A stretch of DNA of 64,000 bases from Dokdonella sp. (GTDB lineage Bacteria > Pseudomonadota > Gammaproteobacteria > Xanthomonadales > Rhodanobacteraceae): the NCBI GenBank assembly GCA_024707225.1, contig JANQAE010000003.1, positions 558,001-622,000 on the forward strand, written 5' to 3'. Below are positions 16,975 to 25,997 of this stretch, one piece after another. The translations under genes and the position numbers were made by a program. The stretch's first letter is position 1. Every line of letters begins with the position of its first letter. The notes beneath the pieces were generated by a model that worked only from the letters and a program-made list of their open reading frames with translations, did not search any database and was not told the DNA's origin.

Positions 16975-18102
16975 TCAGCTCTCGACCAGCTCGACGCCGT
17001 CCAGGCCCTGGCTCAGCGTGTGAGCGTCGCCACCCTGCGCGAGCTTGATCCTGAGCCGCACCTCGTTGGCCGAGTCGGCGTGGCGCAGCGCGTCCTCGTA
17101 GCTGATCTCGCCGGCCTGGTAGAGCTCGAACAGCGCCTGGTCGAAGGTGCGCATGCCGAGGTTGGTCGACTCCTTCATCACGTCCTTGAGCTTGTGGATC
17201 TCGCCCTGGCGGATGTAGTCCTGCACCAGCGGTGTGCCGATCAGCACCTCGATCGCCGCGCGCCGCGACTTGCCGTCGGGCGTCGGGATCAGCTGCTGGG
17301 CGACGACGCCCTTGAGGTTCAGCGACAGATCCATGAACAGCTGCTGGCGCCGGTCCTCGGAGAAGAAATGGATGATGCGGTCCATCGCCTGGTTGGCATT
17401 GTTCGCGTGCAGCGTGCACAGACACAGATGACCGGTCTCGGCGAAGTTGATCGCGTGCTCCATCGTCTCGCGCGTGCGCACCTCGCCGATCATGATGACG
17501 TCGGGCGCCTGGCGCAGCGTGTTCTTGAGCGCGTTCTCCCAGGAATCGGTGTCGATGCCGAGCTCGCGCTGCGTGATGATGCAGCCCTCGTGCTTGTGCA
17601 CGTACTCGATCGGGTCCTCGATCGTGATGATGTGGCCGGTCGAGTTCTGGTTGCGATAGCCGATCATCGCGGCCAGCGAGGTCGACTTGCCGGTGCCGGT
17701 CGCGCCGACGAAGATCACGATGCCGCGCTTGGTCATCGCCAGCGTCTTGATGATCGGCGGCAGGCCGAGCTCCTCGACCGACGGGATGCGCGTCTCGATC
17801 CGGCGCAGCACCATGCCCACGCAGTTGCGCTGGTAGAAGCACGAGACGCGGAAGCGGCCGACGCCGGTCACCGCGATCGCGAACTGGCACTCGTGCGTCT
17901 TCTCGAACTCCTCGCGCTGCGAGGGCGTCATCACGTTCAGCACCATGTCGCGCGACTGCTGCGGCGTCAGCACGTTCTGCGTGATCGGCGCGATGCGGCC
18001 CTGCACCTTCATCGACGGCGCGATGCCGGCCGTGATGAACAGGTCCGACGCCTTCTTATGCGCCATCAGCTTCAGAAACGAGGTGAAATCGACGCTGCTC
18101 AT
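16975..18102 (-). CDS. pilU: Type IV pilus retraction ATPase PilU
   Basis: A 375-residue secretion-type ATPase. It begins MSSVDFTSFLKLMAHKKASD, with GGGAG seven bases upstream. Walker A is GATGTGKSTS, the Asp box and Walker B are in HIITIEDPIEYVH and PDVIMIGEVRTRETM, and the His box is in TGHLCLCTLHANNANQ. The C-terminal GMRTFDQALFELYQAGEISY and HADSANEVRLRIK are diagnostic of PilU rather than PilT. PilU assists PilT in pilus retraction at the cytoplasmic base of the machine. Unusually, pilT is not next to it: upstream is an unrelated membrane gene 34 bases away and downstream a methyltransferase. Confidence 0.93.
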   Translation of the reverse strand: MSSVDFTSFLKLMAHKKASDLFITAGIAPSMKVQGRIAPITQNVLTPQQSRDMVLNVMTPSQREEFEKTHECQFAIAVTGVGRFRVSCFYQRNCVGMVLRRIETRIPSVEELGLPPIIKTLAMTKRGIVIFVGATGTGKSTSLAAMIGYRNQNSTGHIITIEDPIEYVHKHEGCIITQRELGIDTDSWENALKNTLRQAPDVIMIGEVRTRETMEHAINFAETGHLCLCTLHANNANQAMDRIIHFFSEDRRQQLFMDLSLNLKGVVAQQLIPTPDGKSRRAAIEVLIGTPLVQDYIRQGEIHKLKDVMKESTNLGMRTFDQALFELYQAGEISYEDALRHADSANEVRLRIKLAQGGDAHTLSQGLDGVELVES

Positions 18103-18136
18103 GGAACGCTCCCCGCTCGGCCGGGCCGGCAAGCGC

Positions 18137-19549
18137 TCATCTTACACCGCCGCTTTCACCGGCCGTCCGCGACGGATTCGGCGAATCGCCGAACAGCAGG
18201 GCCAGCCAGAGCACGGTCGCCGGCACCAGATGCATGACCAGGCGATGCGCGGCGGTCTCGCTCTGTGCCCAGCTCGAAGCCGGCGTCAGGCAGAACAGGA
18301 ACAGCAGGAACACCCAGCCGGTCGCCAGGAACAGGCCGACCAGGCGTGCGCGCGGATCCTCGCGCAGGCGCCACCAGCGGCACGCCACGATCAGGACCAG
18401 CGCGAGCATCAGCAGATGCCAGTTGTCGGCGCCGAACGAAGCGACGACGATCGCCAGGCCCTCCGGCCGCCAGGCCAGGATCGGGCCTTCGGTCTGGCCC
18501 GGGTTCGGAATCAGCGCGGTGCCGGCGAGCCAGCCGTTGATCGCATCGCCGGCCAGGAGTACCGCCAGCACCAGCGCGGCGGCCAGCACGCCGCCGGCCA
18601 GCAGCATGCCGCGGCGCAGGCGCGGGCTGCAGCGCGCATAGGCCATCAGGCCGGCCAGCAGCGCCAGCCAGACCAGGCCCTCGCGCTTGAGCAGCGGCAG
18701 GCACAGCGCCAGGCCGATCGCGAGCACGAGCAGCCCGCGCGAGCGCGGCTCGCGCAGCCAGCACAGCCAGGCGCCGAGCGCGAACACGACCGCGGTCGCG
18801 ACCCACAGATCCAGATAGCCGGCCAGCGCGACGTGCGAGTCGAGCAGCGGCATCGACGCCAGCGCATACGCAGCCACGGCGGCGACGGCCGGCGCGATCT
18901 CCAGCCGGCGCGCGAGCGCATAGACGCCGACCAGCAAGGCGACCAGCAGCGCGAACCACGGCAGCAGCAGCAGCGGCTCTTCCCAAGCGCCGCGCGCCTG
19001 CGCGAGCAGCAGCTGCAGCCAGGCCGACAGCTCCGGGTAGTTCCAGCCGACCATCGTGCGCGTGCCCTCGCCGGCCAGCCAGTCGGCCGGCGCGACATAG
19101 GGCTCGAACCGGCCCGACAGGAACCAGGCCTTGGGCTTGATCAACCAGGTCGCCCAGGCGTCCCACGGGAACGCCGGCCGCAGCCAGATCTCGCGCGCGA
19201 GCGGCCACAGGTGCAGCACGGCCAGGATCCACGCGGCCCACCAGGCGATGCGGGCGCCGCGCGAGCGCGCCGGCGCGGGCACCGGCCGTGCACTCGCACG
19301 CCGCGACCAGGCCAGGCCCCACGCGGCGAGGGCGATCAGCGCTGCCGCGATCGGCACGCGCAGCGGCAGGCGATCGGTCCGGTCGGGCATCAGCAACCCG
19401 GCCAGCACCGCGCAGGCGACCATGCCGACGAACAGCCCGAGACCGGCGACGAGTCCCCAGGCCGTGCGGTCGCGCGGCCAGCCGATCGCGGCGGCGACCA
19501 GTCCGGTGCCGAGCAGCACGATCACGATGGCGACCAGCCCGTAGCTCAT
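18137..19549 (-). CDS. Polytopic membrane protein, putative GT-C-like glycosyltransferase (module copy 2)
   Basis: A 470-residue protein with ten or more hydrophobic segments. The first large loop contains FPWDAWATWLIKPKAWFLSG, followed by PYVAPADWLAGEGTRTM, and later DSHVALAGYLDLW and LALCLPLLKREGLVWLALL. The layout (many helices, acidic motif in the first loop) is that of GT-C lipid-linked sugar transferases, but no named family was confirmed. It is clearly a paralogue of the protein at 21604, which has FPWDAWAAWQVKSKAWFLAD and DAHVALAGYADLW at the same places. The start overlaps the upstream stop at 19546 (ATGA). pilU follows 34 bases downstream. Confidence 0.7.
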   Translation of the reverse strand: MSYGLVAIVIVLLGTGLVAAAIGWPRDRTAWGLVAGLGLFVGMVACAVLAGLLMPDRTDRLPLRVPIAAALIALAAWGLAWSRRASARPVPAPARSRGARIAWWAAWILAVLHLWPLAREIWLRPAFPWDAWATWLIKPKAWFLSGRFEPYVAPADWLAGEGTRTMVGWNYPELSAWLQLLLAQARGAWEEPLLLLPWFALLVALLVGVYALARRLEIAPAVAAVAAYALASMPLLDSHVALAGYLDLWVATAVVFALGAWLCWLREPRSRGLLVLAIGLALCLPLLKREGLVWLALLAGLMAYARCSPRLRRGMLLAGGVLAAALVLAVLLAGDAINGWLAGTALIPNPGQTEGPILAWRPEGLAIVVASFGADNWHLLMLALVLIVACRWWRLREDPRARLVGLFLATGWVFLLFLFCLTPASSWAQSETAAHRLVMHLVPATVLWLALLFGDSPNPSRTAGESGGVR

Positions 19550-20754
19550 CGGCCGCCCCTGCCTTCGATGGCGTCGACGCGAAATACCTGCAGCGGGCCG
19601 GCATCGATCAGCGAGCGCGCCTCGAAGCGCAGGCGGCCGATGAACAGCTCGCGTGTCGGCGGATGGAAGTTCACGTCGTCACGCCCATACAGCACGAGGA
19701 TCGCGCCGGCCGCGAAATCGCGATCGCCGGCGGCGCGGATCGGCCCGTACAGCGCGGTGTTCATCGGCTGCAGGTGATAGGTCAGGCGCAGCGCCTCGTA
19801 GACCGACGGCGCGTCGACGAGGACGCGCGTCGCCGCGTCCTGCGGCAGCAGCGCGCGCTTGACGCGGTCGGACGCCGCCTGCAGGTCGCCGTCGACGACC
19901 AGGCGCGATCGCAGCGGCCAGCCCTTGCCGCCGTAGACGGCCTCGGTGGTCGCCAGGCGTCCGCTCAGCTGCCACAGCCAGTTCGCGTCGAGCACCAGCC
20001 AGCCGGCGACCGTCGCGGCCGCGAGCAGCGTGCCGATGCGGCGCCAGCGGCGGCCGAACCAGACCAGACCCCACAGGCCGGACAGGACCACCGCCGCGCT
20101 GACGACCAGCAGCAGCGACGGGCGCCGCGGTGCGTTCGGGCCGGCCTCGCGATCGACCGAGCTGACCGCGAACAGTCCCCAGGGCCGCTGCGCGAACCAG
20201 TCGGTGCGCAGCGCCGACAGCGCGCCTTCGACCGACGGCGACCACAGCTGCGCGCTGCGCAGCCGGAACGGTTCGAAGCGCTGGCTGGCCGGCACCAGCT
20301 GCGGCGTCGGGAACTGCGCGAAGCCGATCTCGACGATCGAGCCGTGCCAGTCGGCCAGATCGCTCAACGTGAAGCTGCCCTCGCCGCCGCTCGGACGCGG
20401 CAGCGTGATCACGTGCACCTCGTCGGGCTCGTCGGCGCGCCGGAACAGCAGCGAGAGCTCGAGCACCTCGGGAAAGCGCTCGAAGCGGTAGCGCAGAATC
20501 GGATAGTCGGCCGCCTCGACCGGCAGCAGGCTCATCGCCTGGACCGCGGAACGGTCCTGGCCGACGCCGCTGATCTGCAGGGCGTCCTCGTCCGGCGCGC
20601 CGGCGCCGCGGACGACGCGGAATCCCGCCCCCGGCAGCTCGAGCCGGTCCTCCGGTGCGATCGGCATGCCGACGCGCACGCCGGCGGCGAGCCCGATCAG
20701 CACCAGCACGCTGGCCAGCAGGCAGACCGCGTACAGCACGCGCCGCACGATCAT
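19546..20754 (-). CDS. Membrane protein of unknown function (module copy 2 partner)
   Basis: A 402-residue protein with an N-terminal membrane segment (LYAVCLLASVLVLIGLAAGV), a periplasmic region of about 200 residues rich in beta-type sequence, two helices (LLLVVSAAVVLSGLWGLVW; IGTLLAAATVAGWLVLDANW) and a C-terminal soluble domain. It is paralogous to the gene at 23048: FAQFPTPQLVPASQRFEPF here, FAEFPTPQVMPPDAGFAPF there, each followed by LWSPS. No known domain recognised. The start overlaps the ferritin-like gene's stop and the stop overlaps the GT-C-like start (both ATGA), so expression is coupled on both sides. By context it probably acts with the GT-C-like protein in envelope glycan or lipid handling. 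Confidence 0.65.
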   Translation of the reverse strand: MIVRRVLYAVCLLASVLVLIGLAAGVRVGMPIAPEDRLELPGAGFRVVRGAGAPDEDALQISGVGQDRSAVQAMSLLPVEAADYPILRYRFERFPEVLELSLLFRRADEPDEVHVITLPRPSGGEGSFTLSDLADWHGSIVEIGFAQFPTPQLVPASQRFEPFRLRSAQLWSPSVEGALSALRTDWFAQRPWGLFAVSSVDREAGPNAPRRPSLLLVVSAAVVLSGLWGLVWFGRRWRRIGTLLAAATVAGWLVLDANWLWQLSGRLATTEAVYGGKGWPLRSRLVVDGDLQAASDRVKRALLPQDAATRVLVDAPSVYEALRLTYHLQPMNTALYGPIRAAGDRDFAAGAILVLYGRDDVNFHPPTRELFIGRLRFEARSLIDAGPLQVFRVDAIEGRGGR

Positions 20755-21551
20755 GCGGCGCGCGCTCCGAGCTCGGCCAGTTCCTGCGCCGAGAAGCCGG
20801 CCTGCAGACGGGCATCGGTATTGAACGGACCGCGCAGCCCGCCGGGCAGGTGGCGCTCGATCAGCGCGCGGAACGTGTCGCCGGGCTCGCAGCCGGCACG
20901 GGCGCAGCACCAGGCGAACCAGCGCGATCCGGCCGCCACGTGCGCGACCTCTTCGCGCAGGATCGTCTCGAGGATCGCCACGGTCTGGCGGTCGCCGACC
21001 GACCGCAGGCGCTCGATCATGCCCGGCGTCACGTCGAGCCCGCGCGCCTCGAGCACGCGCGGCACCAGCGCCATGCGCTCCAGGCACGAACCGGCCGTGA
21101 GTCTGGCCATCTCCCACAGGCCGTCGTGGGCGTCGAAGTCGCCGTAGCGATGGCCGAGCTCGGCCAGCCGCGCCGCCAGCAACCCGAAATGACGCGCCTC
21201 GTCGACCGCCACGCCGATCCAGTCGGCGTAGAAGGCCGCCGGCATGTCGCGGTAGCGGTACACCGCGTCCCAGGCCAGGTTGATCGCGTTGAATTCGATG
21301 TGCGCGACCGCGTGCACCAGTGCGGCACGGCCGGCCGGCGTGCCGAGCCCGCGCTGCGCGAGCTCGCGCGGCGGCACCAGACGCGGCCGCTCGGGGCGCC
21401 CCGGCGTCGGAACCGGCATCGGCGGCGCCGCGGAGGCCGGCCCGAACGCGCCGTCGCGGTGCAGCGCCGCGACGCGCAGCGTCGCGGCCCGCTTACGGTC
21501 GGGGTCGCTCAGCATCAGGCATTCGAACGCGGCGGCGTGCAGGTCGGACAT
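20751..21551 (-). CDS. Ferritin-like DUF455 protein
   Basis: A 266-residue helical protein with the DUF455 ferritin-like iron-ligand pattern: HIEFNAINLAWDAVYRY, VAVDEARHFGLLAARL and ILREEVAHVAAGSRWFAWCC supply Glu and His in paired helices. Members are predicted diiron proteins of unknown reaction, sometimes linked to tRNA hydroxylase-like enzymes. The ATG at 21551 (MSDLHAAAFE) is taken as start, although no clear ribosome site precedes it. In the sequence as given the frame is open upstream into the membrane gene, so a fused product is formally possible. It sits between the two copies of the membrane module and overlaps the second copy's first gene by ATGA. Confidence 0.78.
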   Translation of the reverse strand: MSDLHAAAFECLMLSDPDRKRAATLRVAALHRDGAFGPASAAPPMPVPTPGRPERPRLVPPRELAQRGLGTPAGRAALVHAVAHIEFNAINLAWDAVYRYRDMPAAFYADWIGVAVDEARHFGLLAARLAELGHRYGDFDAHDGLWEMARLTAGSCLERMALVPRVLEARGLDVTPGMIERLRSVGDRQTVAILETILREEVAHVAAGSRWFAWCCARAGCEPGDTFRALIERHLPGGLRGPFNTDARLQAGFSAQELAELGARAA

Positions 21552-21603
21552 CGAGGGAATCGGGCAACCGCCGCGACGACGGGAACGCCCGATTCTGCCG
21601 GTT

Positions 21604-23051
21604 TCAGCGCGGCCGGAAAACCCTGGCCGCGGCCGCCCCTCCGATGGCGCTGCCGCCGCGTCGGCGCCCAGCGCTGCGGCCAGCGCGAAAGCGGCCGGCA
21701 CGATCTGCATGAACAGCCGGTTCGCGCTGGTGTAGTCGACCGCCCAGGACGAGGCGTCGGTGAAGAAGAACAGCACGAACAGCAGCGACAGGCAGACGCC
21801 GAGCACGCGTGCCGCCCAGGCCGCGGCCGAGTCCGCACCAATCCGGCGCCAGCGCCATGCGATCAGCACCGGCAGCAGGTACCAGAGCAGGTGCCAGTTG
21901 GGCAGATGGAACAGCGCGGCGACCACGGCCTCGCCGACCGGCCGCCAGTACAGATCGAGCGTGCCGACCGCCCCCAGCTCGATACGGCCCCAGCCGAGCC
22001 GCAGTTCGCCGAGGCCCGGCAGCGGCACGGCCCAGCCGCCGACCGCCAGCAGCACGACCAGCGCGATCGCCAGGATCGCCAGCCCCCAACGCGTGCGGAC
22101 CGCAACGCAGCACCAGGCCGATACCGCGATCAGCACGCCGGCCCAGACCGCGCCCTCGAGCTTGATCAGCGGCAGGCACAGCGCCGCCGCCAGCGCCAGC
22201 AGAGCGTGCGCCCGATCGCGCGTGCGCGCCCAGTGCAGGCCGGCGAACACCGCCAGGCCGAACATCGCCATCAGCCACAGATCGGCATAGCCGGCCAGCG
22301 CGACGTGAGCGTCCACCAGCGGCAGCGACAGCAGGCCCCAGAGCAGCGCGACCGCCAGCCACAGCGGCACGCCGAGCCCGCGCCACTGGCCGTACGCCGC
22401 CAGCGCCAGCGCAGCCAGCGCGCCGGACCAGGCGAGATTGACGGCCGGCTCGATCCAGCCGCCGGCCGCGCTGGCGTACCACAGTTGCAGCCAGGTCAGG
22501 AAATCGGGGTAGCGCCACGACGGCAGCGTGCGGACGTTCGGATCGGTCGCGAGCAGCCAGTCGGCCGGCGCGACGAACGGCAATGCGCGATCGGCCAGGA
22601 ACCAGGCCTTGGACTTGACCTGCCAGGCGGCCCAGGCATCCCACGGGAACGTCGGCCGCAGCAGCGCCTCACCGGCCAGCATCCAGACGCGCCAGACCAT
22701 CGCGAGCACCATCAGCGCGACCAGCGCCCACAGCCAGCGCGGCAGCGGCGCCGCTGCGACCGGCGCGAGGCCGCGGTCGCCCGGCCAGCGCCGGCGCAAC
22801 ACCAGCGCCAGCGCACTCGCAACGATCGCGATGCCGGCGAGCCACGGCGCGACCCGCTCGAACGTGTGGTCGACCGCCTCGCCGACCACGAACGGCGCGA
22901 GCGCGGCGACCAGCACCAGACCGAGCAGATGGCCGTAGCCGAGCAGCACGGCGAGCGCCGCGCCGGTCCGCGGCGGGCGCAGCCACGCGGCGACCAGCGC
23001 CGCGCCGGCCCAGACCGGCAGCAGCCAGGCGCCCAGATAGGCCGGGCTCAT
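21604..23051 (-). CDS. Polytopic membrane protein, putative GT-C-like glycosyltransferase (module copy 1), frame lesion near the end
   Basis: Begins MSPAYLGAWLLPVWAG at 23051, overlapping the stop of the upstream partner (ATGA). Ten or more membrane segments; signature FPWDAWAAWQVKSKAWFLAD, PFVAPADWLLATDPN, DAHVALAGYADLW and ASSWAVDYTSANRLFMQIV, each with a counterpart in the 18137 gene. As given, the frame does not close: it continues through GRPRPGFSGRAETGRIGRS into the ferritin-like gene. Adding one G to the coding-strand GGGG (plus 21636-21639) shifts to a frame ending ARVFRPR and a TGA at 21604, for 482 residues, close to the 470 of its paralogue. I prefer that reading to a real fusion, but it is not proven. 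Confidence 0.65.
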
Positions 23052-24307
23052 CGCAGCCCCCGATAGCGCACGACCAGCAGCCGGTCGCGCGCGAGCAGCT
23101 GCTCGCCCGGCAGGGCGACGTCGCCGGCCGCGACGACGCCGCGCGCGGCGTCGAACTGCCACTGCGGCATGTTGAAGAACACCAGCACGCTGCCGGGCTT
23201 GAGCACCTCGCCCTGCAGCATCGGCGGGCGCTCCGGATCGAGACCGTCGGCGAACAGCGGCAGGCGGGCCTGGATCGCGGGCGCCGCTTCCATCGCCTGC
23301 GACAGCGCGAACGCATTGCGCGGCAGCAGATGCCAGATCAGCCGGTACAGCGGATAGCCGCTGCGCGCGTGGATCAGGATTGGCACGTCCGGTTCGTTGC
23401 GCAGCAGCCAGGCGACCTGCTGGGCGACCTCGACCAGATCGCGGTCGGGCACGGCCGCGGTGCGCTGCGCGAGATCGAGTTCGCCGTAGACGGCCCGGGC
23501 GGCGGCCGAGCGCCAGCGCAGGCCGCCGGCCCAGACCGCATCGAGCAGCAGCCAGCCGGCCGCGAGCGTCACCGCCAGCACCGGCAGCAGCCGCCGCGCT
23601 GGCCAGCGCAACGCGAGCACCCACCACACGGCGGCCAGCGCCGCGAGCACGGCGATCGTCACCGTCGGCGGCCATTGTCCAAAATGCGCGCCGTCGCGGC
23701 CGAGCGCATGGACCGAGCGCGTCGTCCACGGCCACGGGTCGAACCAGGCGCTGCCGAGCGCCGCCAGGCTGCCGCGCCACGACGGCGACCACAGCTCGGC
23801 GCCGACCAGCGCGAACGGCGCGAAGCCGGCATCGGGCGGCATCACCTGCGGCGTCGGAAACTCGGCGAACCCGATCTCCTCGATCGTGCCGTGCCATTCC
23901 GGGATCGCGCCGAGATCGAAACTGCCGGTGCCGCCAGCGGGCCACGGCAGCTCGACGACGTGCAGCTGATCGGGCGCGTCGGCGCGCCGGAACGCGAACG
24001 ACACGGCCAGCGTCGGCGGCAGCCCGTCGAAGCGATAGCGCAGCAACGGATGCGCCGCGGCCTCGAACGGCGCGGTCGCCAGCGACTGCACCGCGGTCGC
24101 ATCGGCGCCTGGGCCTTCAACGCGCAGCCGGCCCTGATCCTCGAGGGCGGCACCCGATACGTTCAGAAAGGCCGCGCCGTCCCAGGTCAGCCGCTGCCCG
24201 GGCTGCCAGGGGCTGTGCCAGGCCAGACCGGCGGCGAACGCGAGCACGATCGCGGCGCTGATCGCGGCCAGCGCCGCGCACAGGCCGATACGCAACCGCG
24301 GCTTCAT
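23048..24307 (-). CDS. Membrane protein of unknown function (module copy 1 partner)
   Basis: A 419-residue paralogue of the 19546 protein. N-terminal membrane segment (LRIGLCAALAAISAAIVLAF), periplasmic region containing HPLLRYRFDGLPPTLAVSF and WHGTIEEIGFAEFPTPQ, two helices (TVTIAVLAALAAVWWVLAL; LLPVLAVTLAAGWLLLDAVW) and a C-terminal domain (PDVPILIHARSGYPLYRLIW). The first gene of a run in which every junction down to 18137 is a 4-base overlap except the one with the lesion. Starts at ATG 24307 (MKPRLRIG); 24325 is possible. The 211 bases upstream, to the purF stop, must hold the promoter; none could be assigned. Function unknown. Confidence 0.65.
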   Translation of the reverse strand: MKPRLRIGLCAALAAISAAIVLAFAAGLAWHSPWQPGQRLTWDGAAFLNVSGAALEDQGRLRVEGPGADATAVQSLATAPFEAAAHPLLRYRFDGLPPTLAVSFAFRRADAPDQLHVVELPWPAGGTGSFDLGAIPEWHGTIEEIGFAEFPTPQVMPPDAGFAPFALVGAELWSPSWRGSLAALGSAWFDPWPWTTRSVHALGRDGAHFGQWPPTVTIAVLAALAAVWWVLALRWPARRLLPVLAVTLAAGWLLLDAVWAGGLRWRSAAARAVYGELDLAQRTAAVPDRDLVEVAQQVAWLLRNEPDVPILIHARSGYPLYRLIWHLLPRNAFALSQAMEAAPAIQARLPLFADGLDPERPPMLQGEVLKPGSVLVFFNMPQWQFDAARGVVAAGDVALPGEQLLARDRLLVVRYRGLR

Positions 24308-24518: not shown

Positions 24519-25997
24519 TCAGCCGACCTGGCGGCGCTGCGCCTTGGCCTCGTCGGACCGGCCCAGCTCGAGCTCGCGCAGATAGGTCGGCTCGACCCCG
24601 GTGATGTACTGGCCGGTGAAGCACGAGGCGTCGAACTGCGCGAGCTCCTCGTTGCCGTCGATCACGGCCGCGATCAGATCGTCCAGGTCCTGATAGATCA
24701 GCCAGTCGGTGCCGAGAATCTCCTGGATCTCCGCCTCGCTGCGTCCGTGCGCGACCAGTTCGGCGGCCGCCGGCATGTCGATGCCGTAGATGTTCGGATA
24801 GCGCACCGGCGGCGCCGCCGACGCGAAATACACCTTGCGCGCACCGGCCTCGCGCGCCATCTGGATGATCTGCTTGGAGGTGGTGCCGCGCACGATCGAG
24901 TCGTCGACCAGCAGCACGGCCTTCTTGCGGAACTCCAGGGGGATCGGATTGAGCTTGCGACGCACCGATTTCACGCGCTCGCCCTGCCCCGGCATGATGA
25001 ACGTGCGGCCGATGTAGCGGTTCTTGACGAAGCCCTCGCGCATCGGCACGCCGAGCGCCTGCGCCAGCGACGAGGCCGCCGTGCGCGAAGTGTCGGGGAT
25101 CGGGATCACCGCCTCGATGTCGTGGTCGGGGCGCAGCCGGCGGATCTTCGCGGCCAGCCGCTCGCCCATGCGCAGGCGTGCCTTGTAGACCGACACGTCC
25201 TCCATCATCGAGTCGGGCCGCGCCATGTAGACGTACTCGAAGATGCACGGCGCGTGCACCGCGGTCTCGGCGCACTGGCGCGCGTGCAGCTGGCCGTCCA
25301 GCGTGATCAGCACGGCCTCGCCGGGCTCCACGTCGCGCAGCAGGCGGAAGCCGAGGATGTCGAACGCGACCGACTCGGACGCGACCGCGTACTCCTTGCC
25401 GTCCGGCGTGTCGCGCTCGCCGAGCACCAGCGGACGGATGCCGTGGCGGTCGCGGAACGCGACGATGCCGCAGCCAAGCAGCAGCGTCGCGACCGCATAG
25501 CCGCCGACGCAGCGGCGGTGCACGCCGGCGACGGCCTTGAAGATGTTGTCGGGCGAGAGCGTCAGGCGGTCCTGGATCTGCAGCTCGTGCGCGAACACGT
25601 TCAGCAGGATCTCCGAGTCCGAATCGGTGTTGATGTGGCGCCGATCGTCCTCGTATACCTCGCGGCGCAGCGTGTCGGTGTTGATCAGGTTGCCGTTGTG
25701 CGCGAGCGCGATGCCGTACGGGGAATTGACGTACAGCGGCTGCGCCTCGGTGGAGCCCTCGGCGCCGGCGGTCGGATAGCGGCAGTGGCCGATGCCGACA
25801 TGGCCGCGCAGACCGAGCATGTGCTCGCGGTCGAACACGTCGCGGACCAGGCCCGGCCCCTTGTGCAGCCGCAGCCGCGAGCCGTCCAGCGTCGCGATGC
25901 CGGCGGCGTCCTGTCCGCGATGCTGGAGGACGGTCAGCCCGTCATAGAGCGAGGCCGCCACTTCCGACTTGCCTACGATGCCGATGATTCCGCACAT
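24519..25997 (-). CDS. purF: Amidophosphoribosyltransferase
   Basis: A 492-residue enzyme for the first step of de novo purine synthesis (PRPP plus glutamine to phosphoribosylamine). After Met removal the nucleophile Cys leads [20 protein letters not shown]. The Ntn glutaminase domain ([26 protein letters not shown]) covers about 1-240. The C-terminal phosphoribosyltransferase domain has the PRPP motif [17 protein letters not shown] near 360. Length and motifs are normal; no propeptide. It ends the queA-tgt-folC-dedD-cvpA-purF row, 56 bases after cvpA. Confidence 0.96.

Follow-up and report, generated by a model that had tools for sequence, protein, structure and literature searches.

Within a 64,000-nucleotide stretch of Dokdonella sp. 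DNA (the window), taken from a genome of 4.37 Mb (G000), five minus-strand genes, here called A1, B1, DUF455, A2 and B2, sit between purF and pilU. Each of the two A-B pairs probably forms one two-subunit membrane glycosyltransferase, which would move a sugar from a lipid carrier to an envelope molecule within a five-gene system of A, B and a cassette encoding a GT4 glycosyltransferase, a DUF2304 protein and a GT2 glycosyltransferase. This proposal draws on the paralogy of the pairs, on their constant pairing and occasional fusion in other genomes, on the co-occurrence of DUF2304 and the clustering of the cassette genes in relatives, and on the predicted folds of A and B. An initial annotation, made from the window alone, had rightly sensed a GT-C-like system, which is real and conserved, but had placed its borders wrongly: DUF455 falls outside the system, and the GT2-DUF2304-GT4 cassette falls inside it. 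The role in an envelope glycan that had been guessed at from membrane topology fits the glycosyltransferase cassette among the neighbouring genes.

The features concerned are listed below, with window coordinates.

23048-24307, minus strand: A1 (copy 1), 419 amino acids, without a Pfam or NCBIfam family; fold inferred from the paralogue A2
21654-23051, minus strand: B1 (copy 1), family-like part of 466 amino acids; putative GT-C-type polytopic protein, fold taken from the paralogue B2
19546-20754, minus strand: A2 (copy 2), 402 amino acids; AlphaFold2 model with a mean predicted local distance difference test score (pLDDT) of 91.5, laid out as anchor helix, sandwich like a carbohydrate-binding module (CBM), two helices and alpha/beta domain
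18137-19549, minus strand: B2 (copy 2), 470 amino acids; predicted GT-C-fold protein, AlphaFold2 pLDDT 89.0 and predicted template modelling score (pTM) 0.91
20751-21551, minus strand: DUF455 gene (PF04305, 1e-96) between the pairs; neighbour of purF, judged a bystander
24519-25997, minus strand: purF, identified by recognition; context gene on the upstream side, normally followed by the DUF455 gene in relatives
16975-18132: pilU, named by recognition; the other flank of the five-gene run

The pairwise paralogy noted initially is borne out, with 41% identity between A1 and A2 (333 columns, E 4e-71) and 39% between B1 and B2 (470 columns, E 1e-59), both well above what chance would give. Four-base ATGA overlaps, said to mark nearly every junction, are present at three of the four internal junctions, namely A1/B1, DUF455/A2 and A2/B2.

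The A-B pair and its cassette across genomes

Relatives of B were sought in one genome per species. The scan covered 84,980 species and gave 152 loci, of which the best 80 were kept for the counts that follow; neighbours were counted from tblastn, and all-against-all blastp clustering was used only as a lead (antisense frames in high-GC DNA). At 78 of the 80 loci, A and B share a strand and are no more than 0.5 kb apart, in agreement with the initial view of the pair as a unit. At one of the remaining loci (L076) A is on the opposite strand, 3.9 kb from B, and at the other (L127) it was not seen and the contig ends there. The order is A then B at 74 loci and B then A at four. Moreover, a single B-A open frame of 853-868 amino acids is found in G052, G042 and L108 (Haliea), and such fusions are strong evidence of joint action by A and B.

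In the Haliea locus (L108, 5417-8118) the fused gene is followed by genes for dehydrogenase-like, NeuD-type acetyltransferase-like and PseC-type aminotransferase-like proteins. The matches of these proteins are all under the NCBIfam cut-offs, and they may hint that the glycan carries an amino sugar. Two loci with B before A (L110 and L123) have no donor cassette in the flanks examined and may use a donor made elsewhere; in L110 the pair adjoins radA/alr/dnaB-like genes, named by recognition. Two further loci carry titles from outside the gammaproteobacteria, the metagenome-assembled genomes of a Synechococcaceae (L098) and a Phycisphaerales (L114), and probably represent misbinned contigs.

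The GT4 gene is typically beside the pair, followed by the DUF2304 and GT2 genes, and faces it on the other strand in 61 of 66 cases. Across the 80 loci, GT4 was found at 66, DUF2304 at 60 and GT2 at 58, several of the absences being contig ends. Where at least 3.5 kb were covered on both sides, all three genes are present at 42 of 50 loci, and they are likewise all present at 25 of the 32 well-covered loci that have neither purF nor DUF455. All five genes fall within one examined stretch at 17 of 22 loci from relatives, a set that overlaps in genomes with the 80 loci and is not independent of them.

In addition, DUF2304 follows the pair at the level of whole genomes. Of 60 relatives, 23 have the pair, and 21 of these give a DUF2304 match over the cut-off; none of the 37 lacking the pair does so, one of them (G031) having a match below the cut-off. 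The two pair-bearing genomes lacking a match over the cut-off are G006, where the pair is at a contig end, and G044. Fisher tests gave 3e-14 when genomes were counted and 4e-9 when genera were (10/11 versus 0/33), although both values correct incompletely for shared ancestry. The link is weaker among 369 genomes sampled across the class, where DUF2304 is present in four of seven genomes with a strong pair and in nine of 362 others (p 3e-5), the weak B matches of G168 and G355 being counted among the others.

The window genome has its GT2-DUF2304-GT4 genes on another contig (G000:C3, about 705906-708188), and the cassette is likewise away from the pair in G005, G045 and G039. Its DUF2304 gene (PF10066, 6.2e-23; G000:C3:706625-706933) comes directly after the GT2 gene. 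The GT2 protein gave NCBIfam matches under the family cut-offs to PpgS (1.2e-22, the best) and AglJ (3e-15), and matches in the PDB to DPMS (7e-5) and ArnC (2e-4); by homology only, it would be of the polyprenyl-phosphate-sugar-synthase type.

The arrangement of these genes is not constant. In the Chromatiales loci L101, L109 and L129 the cassette is upstream of A, and in L115 it is split around the pair, which shows that one set of five genes has been rearranged repeatedly. In L077, L106 and L128, A-B is preceded by genes for a methyltransferase that has a GT2-like tail and for a GT2-like protein, and in L106 also by one for an NAD-dependent epimerase.

Predicted folds and the likely acceptor

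Models of A2 and B2 were made as separate chains, from alignments of 71 and 77 rows respectively; a MAFFT alignment with the Haliea fusion placed A rows over the B half and was discarded. The best PDB match of the B2 model is ArnT (GT83; 5ezm, Z 18.3, 288 residues aligned, 4.2 Å), followed by a second ArnT entry (Z 18.2) and, in rows 3-6, by oligosaccharyltransferase complexes (Z 16.5-17.5). By title, 24 of the top 27 matches (Z 9.1-18.3) are GT-C enzymes or complexes holding one, and the other three are chains from translocon complexes, with oligosaccharyltransferase named as a component in two of the titles. Pmt4 and other PMTs, PglB, AglB, AftA/AftB, ALG9 and PimE are among the proteins matched, and after row 27 the list drops to WaaL (Z 5.4) and then to 4.4. 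A GT-C fold is predicted for B from this model, and a soluble domain outside the membrane is predicted for A, which is the composition initially proposed for the pair. B2 differs from ArnT in having three extra helices before the matching region, which starts at residue 96, and the B2 model has no soluble domain at its C-terminal end.

Profile comparison supports a distant kinship of B with PMT_2-type proteins. Alignment of B with such proteins from relatives (30 loci, of which filtering by length and hydrophobicity left 20) scored 51.4 (E 1.3e-5, probability 80%). The reversed profile scored 27.1, and 20 block shuffles reached a maximum of 29.1. The alignment sets D247 and K288 of B2 against an Asp and a Lys of the PMT_2-type proteins. 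Together with D130 and R436, these two residues are invariant in 77 of 77 rows. D130 is seven residues after the model helix 97-123, in the first loop past the first core helix. We take an acidic residue in this loop to be the catalytic position of GT-C enzymes, and by analogy D130 is the likely catalytic residue of B2.

In the A2 model, one anchor helix precedes a beta-sandwich (residues 37-171), which is followed by two transmembrane helices and a C-terminal alpha/beta domain. Residues 35-175 match CBM86 (6sgf) with Z 10.1 (124 aligned, 2.7 Å), and many other CBMs match the sandwich with Z 7.6-8.7. Matches from the fold search hardly extended into the C-terminal domain (about 289-396). An arginine-rich loop, read from the sequence between helices two and three, points to a location outside the cytoplasm for the two soluble domains of A.

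The resemblance to ArnT and ArnC raises the possibility that the sugar goes to lipid A or to the inner core of lipopolysaccharide, and not to a polysaccharide, with A as a structural subunit and not an acceptor binder. ArnT holds the first two places in the B2 list, and the solved structures related to the GT2 include ArnC. Nevertheless, this alternative is unlikely, since a lipid A transferase has no obvious need for a CBM-like domain, oligosaccharyltransferase complexes score hardly below ArnT, and sugar-nucleotide-type genes come after the fused gene in Haliea. Glycosylation of periplasmic proteins, with B working like a PMT or PglB and A binding the acceptor protein, is still less probable. 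Pmt4, PglB, AglB and oligosaccharyltransferase complexes are strong matches of B, but GT-C folds are common to different acceptor types, so that a match does not choose between them, and glycans are indicated by the CBM-like fold predicted for A as well as by neighbouring genes of glycosyltransferase and sugar-nucleotide type. Transfer to a glycan by an A-B enzyme is the reading preferred here.

A proposed mechanism and its place among known systems

In the mechanism that we infer, the GT2 protein and its small DUF2304 membrane partner would make the donor on the cytoplasmic side, in the manner of GacI/GacJ and WpsA/WpsB, GT4 would probably add a second sugar to the lipid-linked sugar, and a flippase would turn the donor over. 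At the periplasmic face, B would serve as the catalytic GT-C core, with D130 of B2 as its likely catalytic residue, and would take a sugar or short oligosaccharide from the polyprenyl-monophosphate donor. A would be the partner of B, with its CBM-like and second domains outside the cytoplasm, and would probably present the acceptor glycan to B. A broader formulation carries about even chances of being correct: that A and B are the catalytic core and the glycan-recognising module of one enzyme, kept as separate proteins without curated models and fused as B-A in a few lineages, and that the five-gene system (A, B, GT4, DUF2304 and GT2) of purple sulfur bacteria, Competibacteraceae, Rhodanobacteraceae and other gammaproteobacteria decorates an undescribed surface glycan.

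Genes recognised as an ABC ATPase and an ABC-2 permease are directly upstream of the cassette in the window genome and in G005 (L131, 7215-8779, and L197, 10521-12052), and are possibly a local exporter. As the flippase of the system, the ABC-2 transporter was rejected: the permease was matched in only two of 106 loci, which are these same two, and seven other loci match the ATPase more weakly.

Several observations, the scarcity of this permease included, weigh against the proposal. No Pfam family, PMT_2 (PF13231) included, matches any of the 77 B proteins at E<=0.01, none matches more than one of the 71 A proteins, and the NCBIfam matches of the A and B copies in the window did not come close to any cut-off. 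A Foldseek comparison of B2 with known structures, by which the GT-C assignment was to be checked, did return a GT-C-type enzyme, AftB, as its best match with a probability of 0.99, but the match is weak (E 0.1). Sandwiches other than CBMs match A with Z up to 9.7, and values near 8 may reflect a common arrangement, so that the fold alone is no proof of sugar binding. At least one cassette gene is missing from eight of the 50 well-covered loci, and in the window genome itself the cassette is unlinked to the A-B pairs. No DUF2304 match was found in the pair-bearing relative G044 or in G204, G382 and G384, three of the seven class-wide genomes with a strong pair, and the matches over the cut-off in nine of the 362 class genomes without a strong pair imply that DUF2304 serves other systems too. 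Finally, deep nodes of the A tree described below are not resolved.

The known systems with which A and B can be compared are described here from excerpts of the cited papers. GacI or WpsA, with the small DUF2304-type partner GacJ or WpsB, makes GlcNAc-P-C55 (N-acetylglucosamine on a phosphorylated C55 lipid), which cytoplasmic transferases may extend before a flippase flips it and a GT-C enzyme attaches the sugar to a wall polysaccharide (PMC8327497, PMC10821137, PMC8035078). In lactococci, further cytoplasmic glycosyltransferases extend the lipid-linked sugar (PMC8327497, PMC10821137, PMC8035078). GacI/GacJ/GacK/GacL, which act on the group A carbohydrate, and WpsA/WpsB/WpsG/WpsJ, which act on the cell-wall polysaccharide of lactococci, are like the present system in combining a GT2 synthase, a DUF2304-type partner and a GT-C enzyme, whereas the present system has a separate CBM-like A, a GT4 as its extra glycosyltransferase and Gram-negative hosts. 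GacJ-GacI fusions have been noted in some Gram-negative genomes (PMC10821137).

A like scheme, with PpgS, Rv3632 and Rv3779, places galactosamine on mycobacterial arabinogalactan (PMC9671496, PMC3485146). It shares with the present system a GT2, a small membrane helper, a polytopic transferase and a flippase that is not named, and the excerpted accounts mention no counterpart of A (PMC9671496, PMC3485146). PpgS is also the protein whose NCBIfam model the window-genome GT2 matches best, albeit far below the cut-off. Rv3632 is presumably a DUF2304 protein, and a PF10066 match is present in the C. glutamicum control genome. The composition of GT2, small membrane partner and GT-C is therefore known, from GacI/GacJ/GacL and PpgS/Rv3632/Rv3779 (PMC8327497, PMC10821137, PMC9671496), and the initial statement that no described pathway has the composition of the present one was too strong; a separate A-type subunit of a GT-C enzyme was not found in the open-licence papers searched.

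CBMs occur in the same chain as the GT-C enzyme in GT136, EmbA/B/C and AftD, and that of ORF12, a GT136 enzyme of Citrobacter, binds the acceptor glycan (PMC11127046). ORF12 and the Emb/AftD enzymes resemble the proposed one in pairing a GT-C enzyme that uses a polyprenyl-phosphate donor with a CBM. However, their CBM is within the GT-C chain, whereas the sandwich is here on a separate protein at most loci, G042, G052 and L108 being the fused cases among those examined, and the synthesis of their donor starts from phosphoribosyl pyrophosphate, unlike here. The B-A fusions put A after B, on the same side as the beta-rich domain of GT136 (PMC11127046). O-antigen glucosylation by GtrA/GtrB/GtrC follows the same logic of donor synthase, flippase and periplasmic GT-C (PMC11127046), whereas the present system has a DUF2304 partner, the extra A and a GT4. 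By analogy, the present system fits a known plan with one change, the placing of the sandwich domain on A.

An orphan gene pair thus becomes a testable glycosylation system with two families without names, A and B, at its heart and with its missing parts named, these being on another contig in the window genome. As far as the excerpted sources go, the GacJ-type DUF2304 donor machinery has been elucidated for the walls of Gram-positives and actinobacteria; were the proposal true, this machinery would be tied to a defined transferase in Gram-negatives, and A-B would be a natural GT-C enzyme with its glycan-binding domain on a subunit of its own. Whether phages adsorb can depend on decorations of this kind (PMC9671496, PMC10821137), and the genes may therefore be markers of serotype-like variation among bacteria of the environment and of wastewater.

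The DUF455 gene and the age of the two copies

The DUF455 gene, which separates the two pairs, appears to be a bystander. The Pfam Ferritin model gave just E 0.16 on its product, which we take to be ferritin-like. DUF455 is kept in 55 of the 60 relatives, and the A-B pair in 23. Among the 30 DUF455 loci listed, purF is within 1.5 kb at 13 of 14 from pair-bearing genomes and at 15 of 16 from pair-less ones. DUF455 is near B at 29 of the 80 loci, and 49 of the 80 have neither DUF455 nor purF, some of these being cut by contig ends. As purF adjoins DUF455 irrespective of the pair, DUF455 is the neighbour of purF and the pairs stand around or after DUF455, and the survey disposes of the initial suggestion that it might be a fixed partner.

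The end of B1 has also been revised. The TGA at 21604, originally taken as its stop, belongs to a different frame, and the B1 frame runs without a stop from 23051 down to 20751, through the DUF455 gene (766 codons). In the relative G005, B1 is closed by an in-frame TGA 38 codons before the DUF455 start. The continuous frame is a natural fusion, a stop loss or a sequence error, which are indistinguishable here. A functional unit of DUF455 and the A-B pairs, in which the DUF455 protein might for instance give an oxidised or hydroxylated lipid sugar, could appeal to this frame, to the overlap with A2 and to the loci with DUF455 near B, but it is strongly disfavoured and highly improbable, DUF455 being rejected as a partner on account of its wide presence, its linkage to purF in genomes without the pair and the A-B loci that lack it.

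The window was initially described as holding a tandem duplication; the copies are paralogous, but a recent local duplication is ruled out by the B tree. In this tree of 42 B proteins, B1 is sister to B1 of G005 and B2 to B2 of G005, each with support of 100/100, and the A tree agrees, A1 and A2 each being sister to their G005 counterparts (100/100). B2 falls in a supported set of ten rows (95/98) that also takes in the upstream copies from G034, L062 and L071 (in L071 a fragment), whereas B1 is outside this set, in a wider clade of 17 rows with support just under the mark (90/99). The duplication or acquisition is therefore old, and A1-B1 and A2-B2 are, from their sequences, old and diverged paralogous pairs. 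Because B2 groups with those upstream copies, the order of the two copy types in the window is reversed relative to G034, L062 and L071. With two such pairs and one DUF2304 cassette, the window genome may use a single donor to decorate two different acceptors or two positions. Eight of nine other genomes of the same genus have a single B match and, where the stretch is complete, the gene order in this genus is purF, DUF455, A, B.

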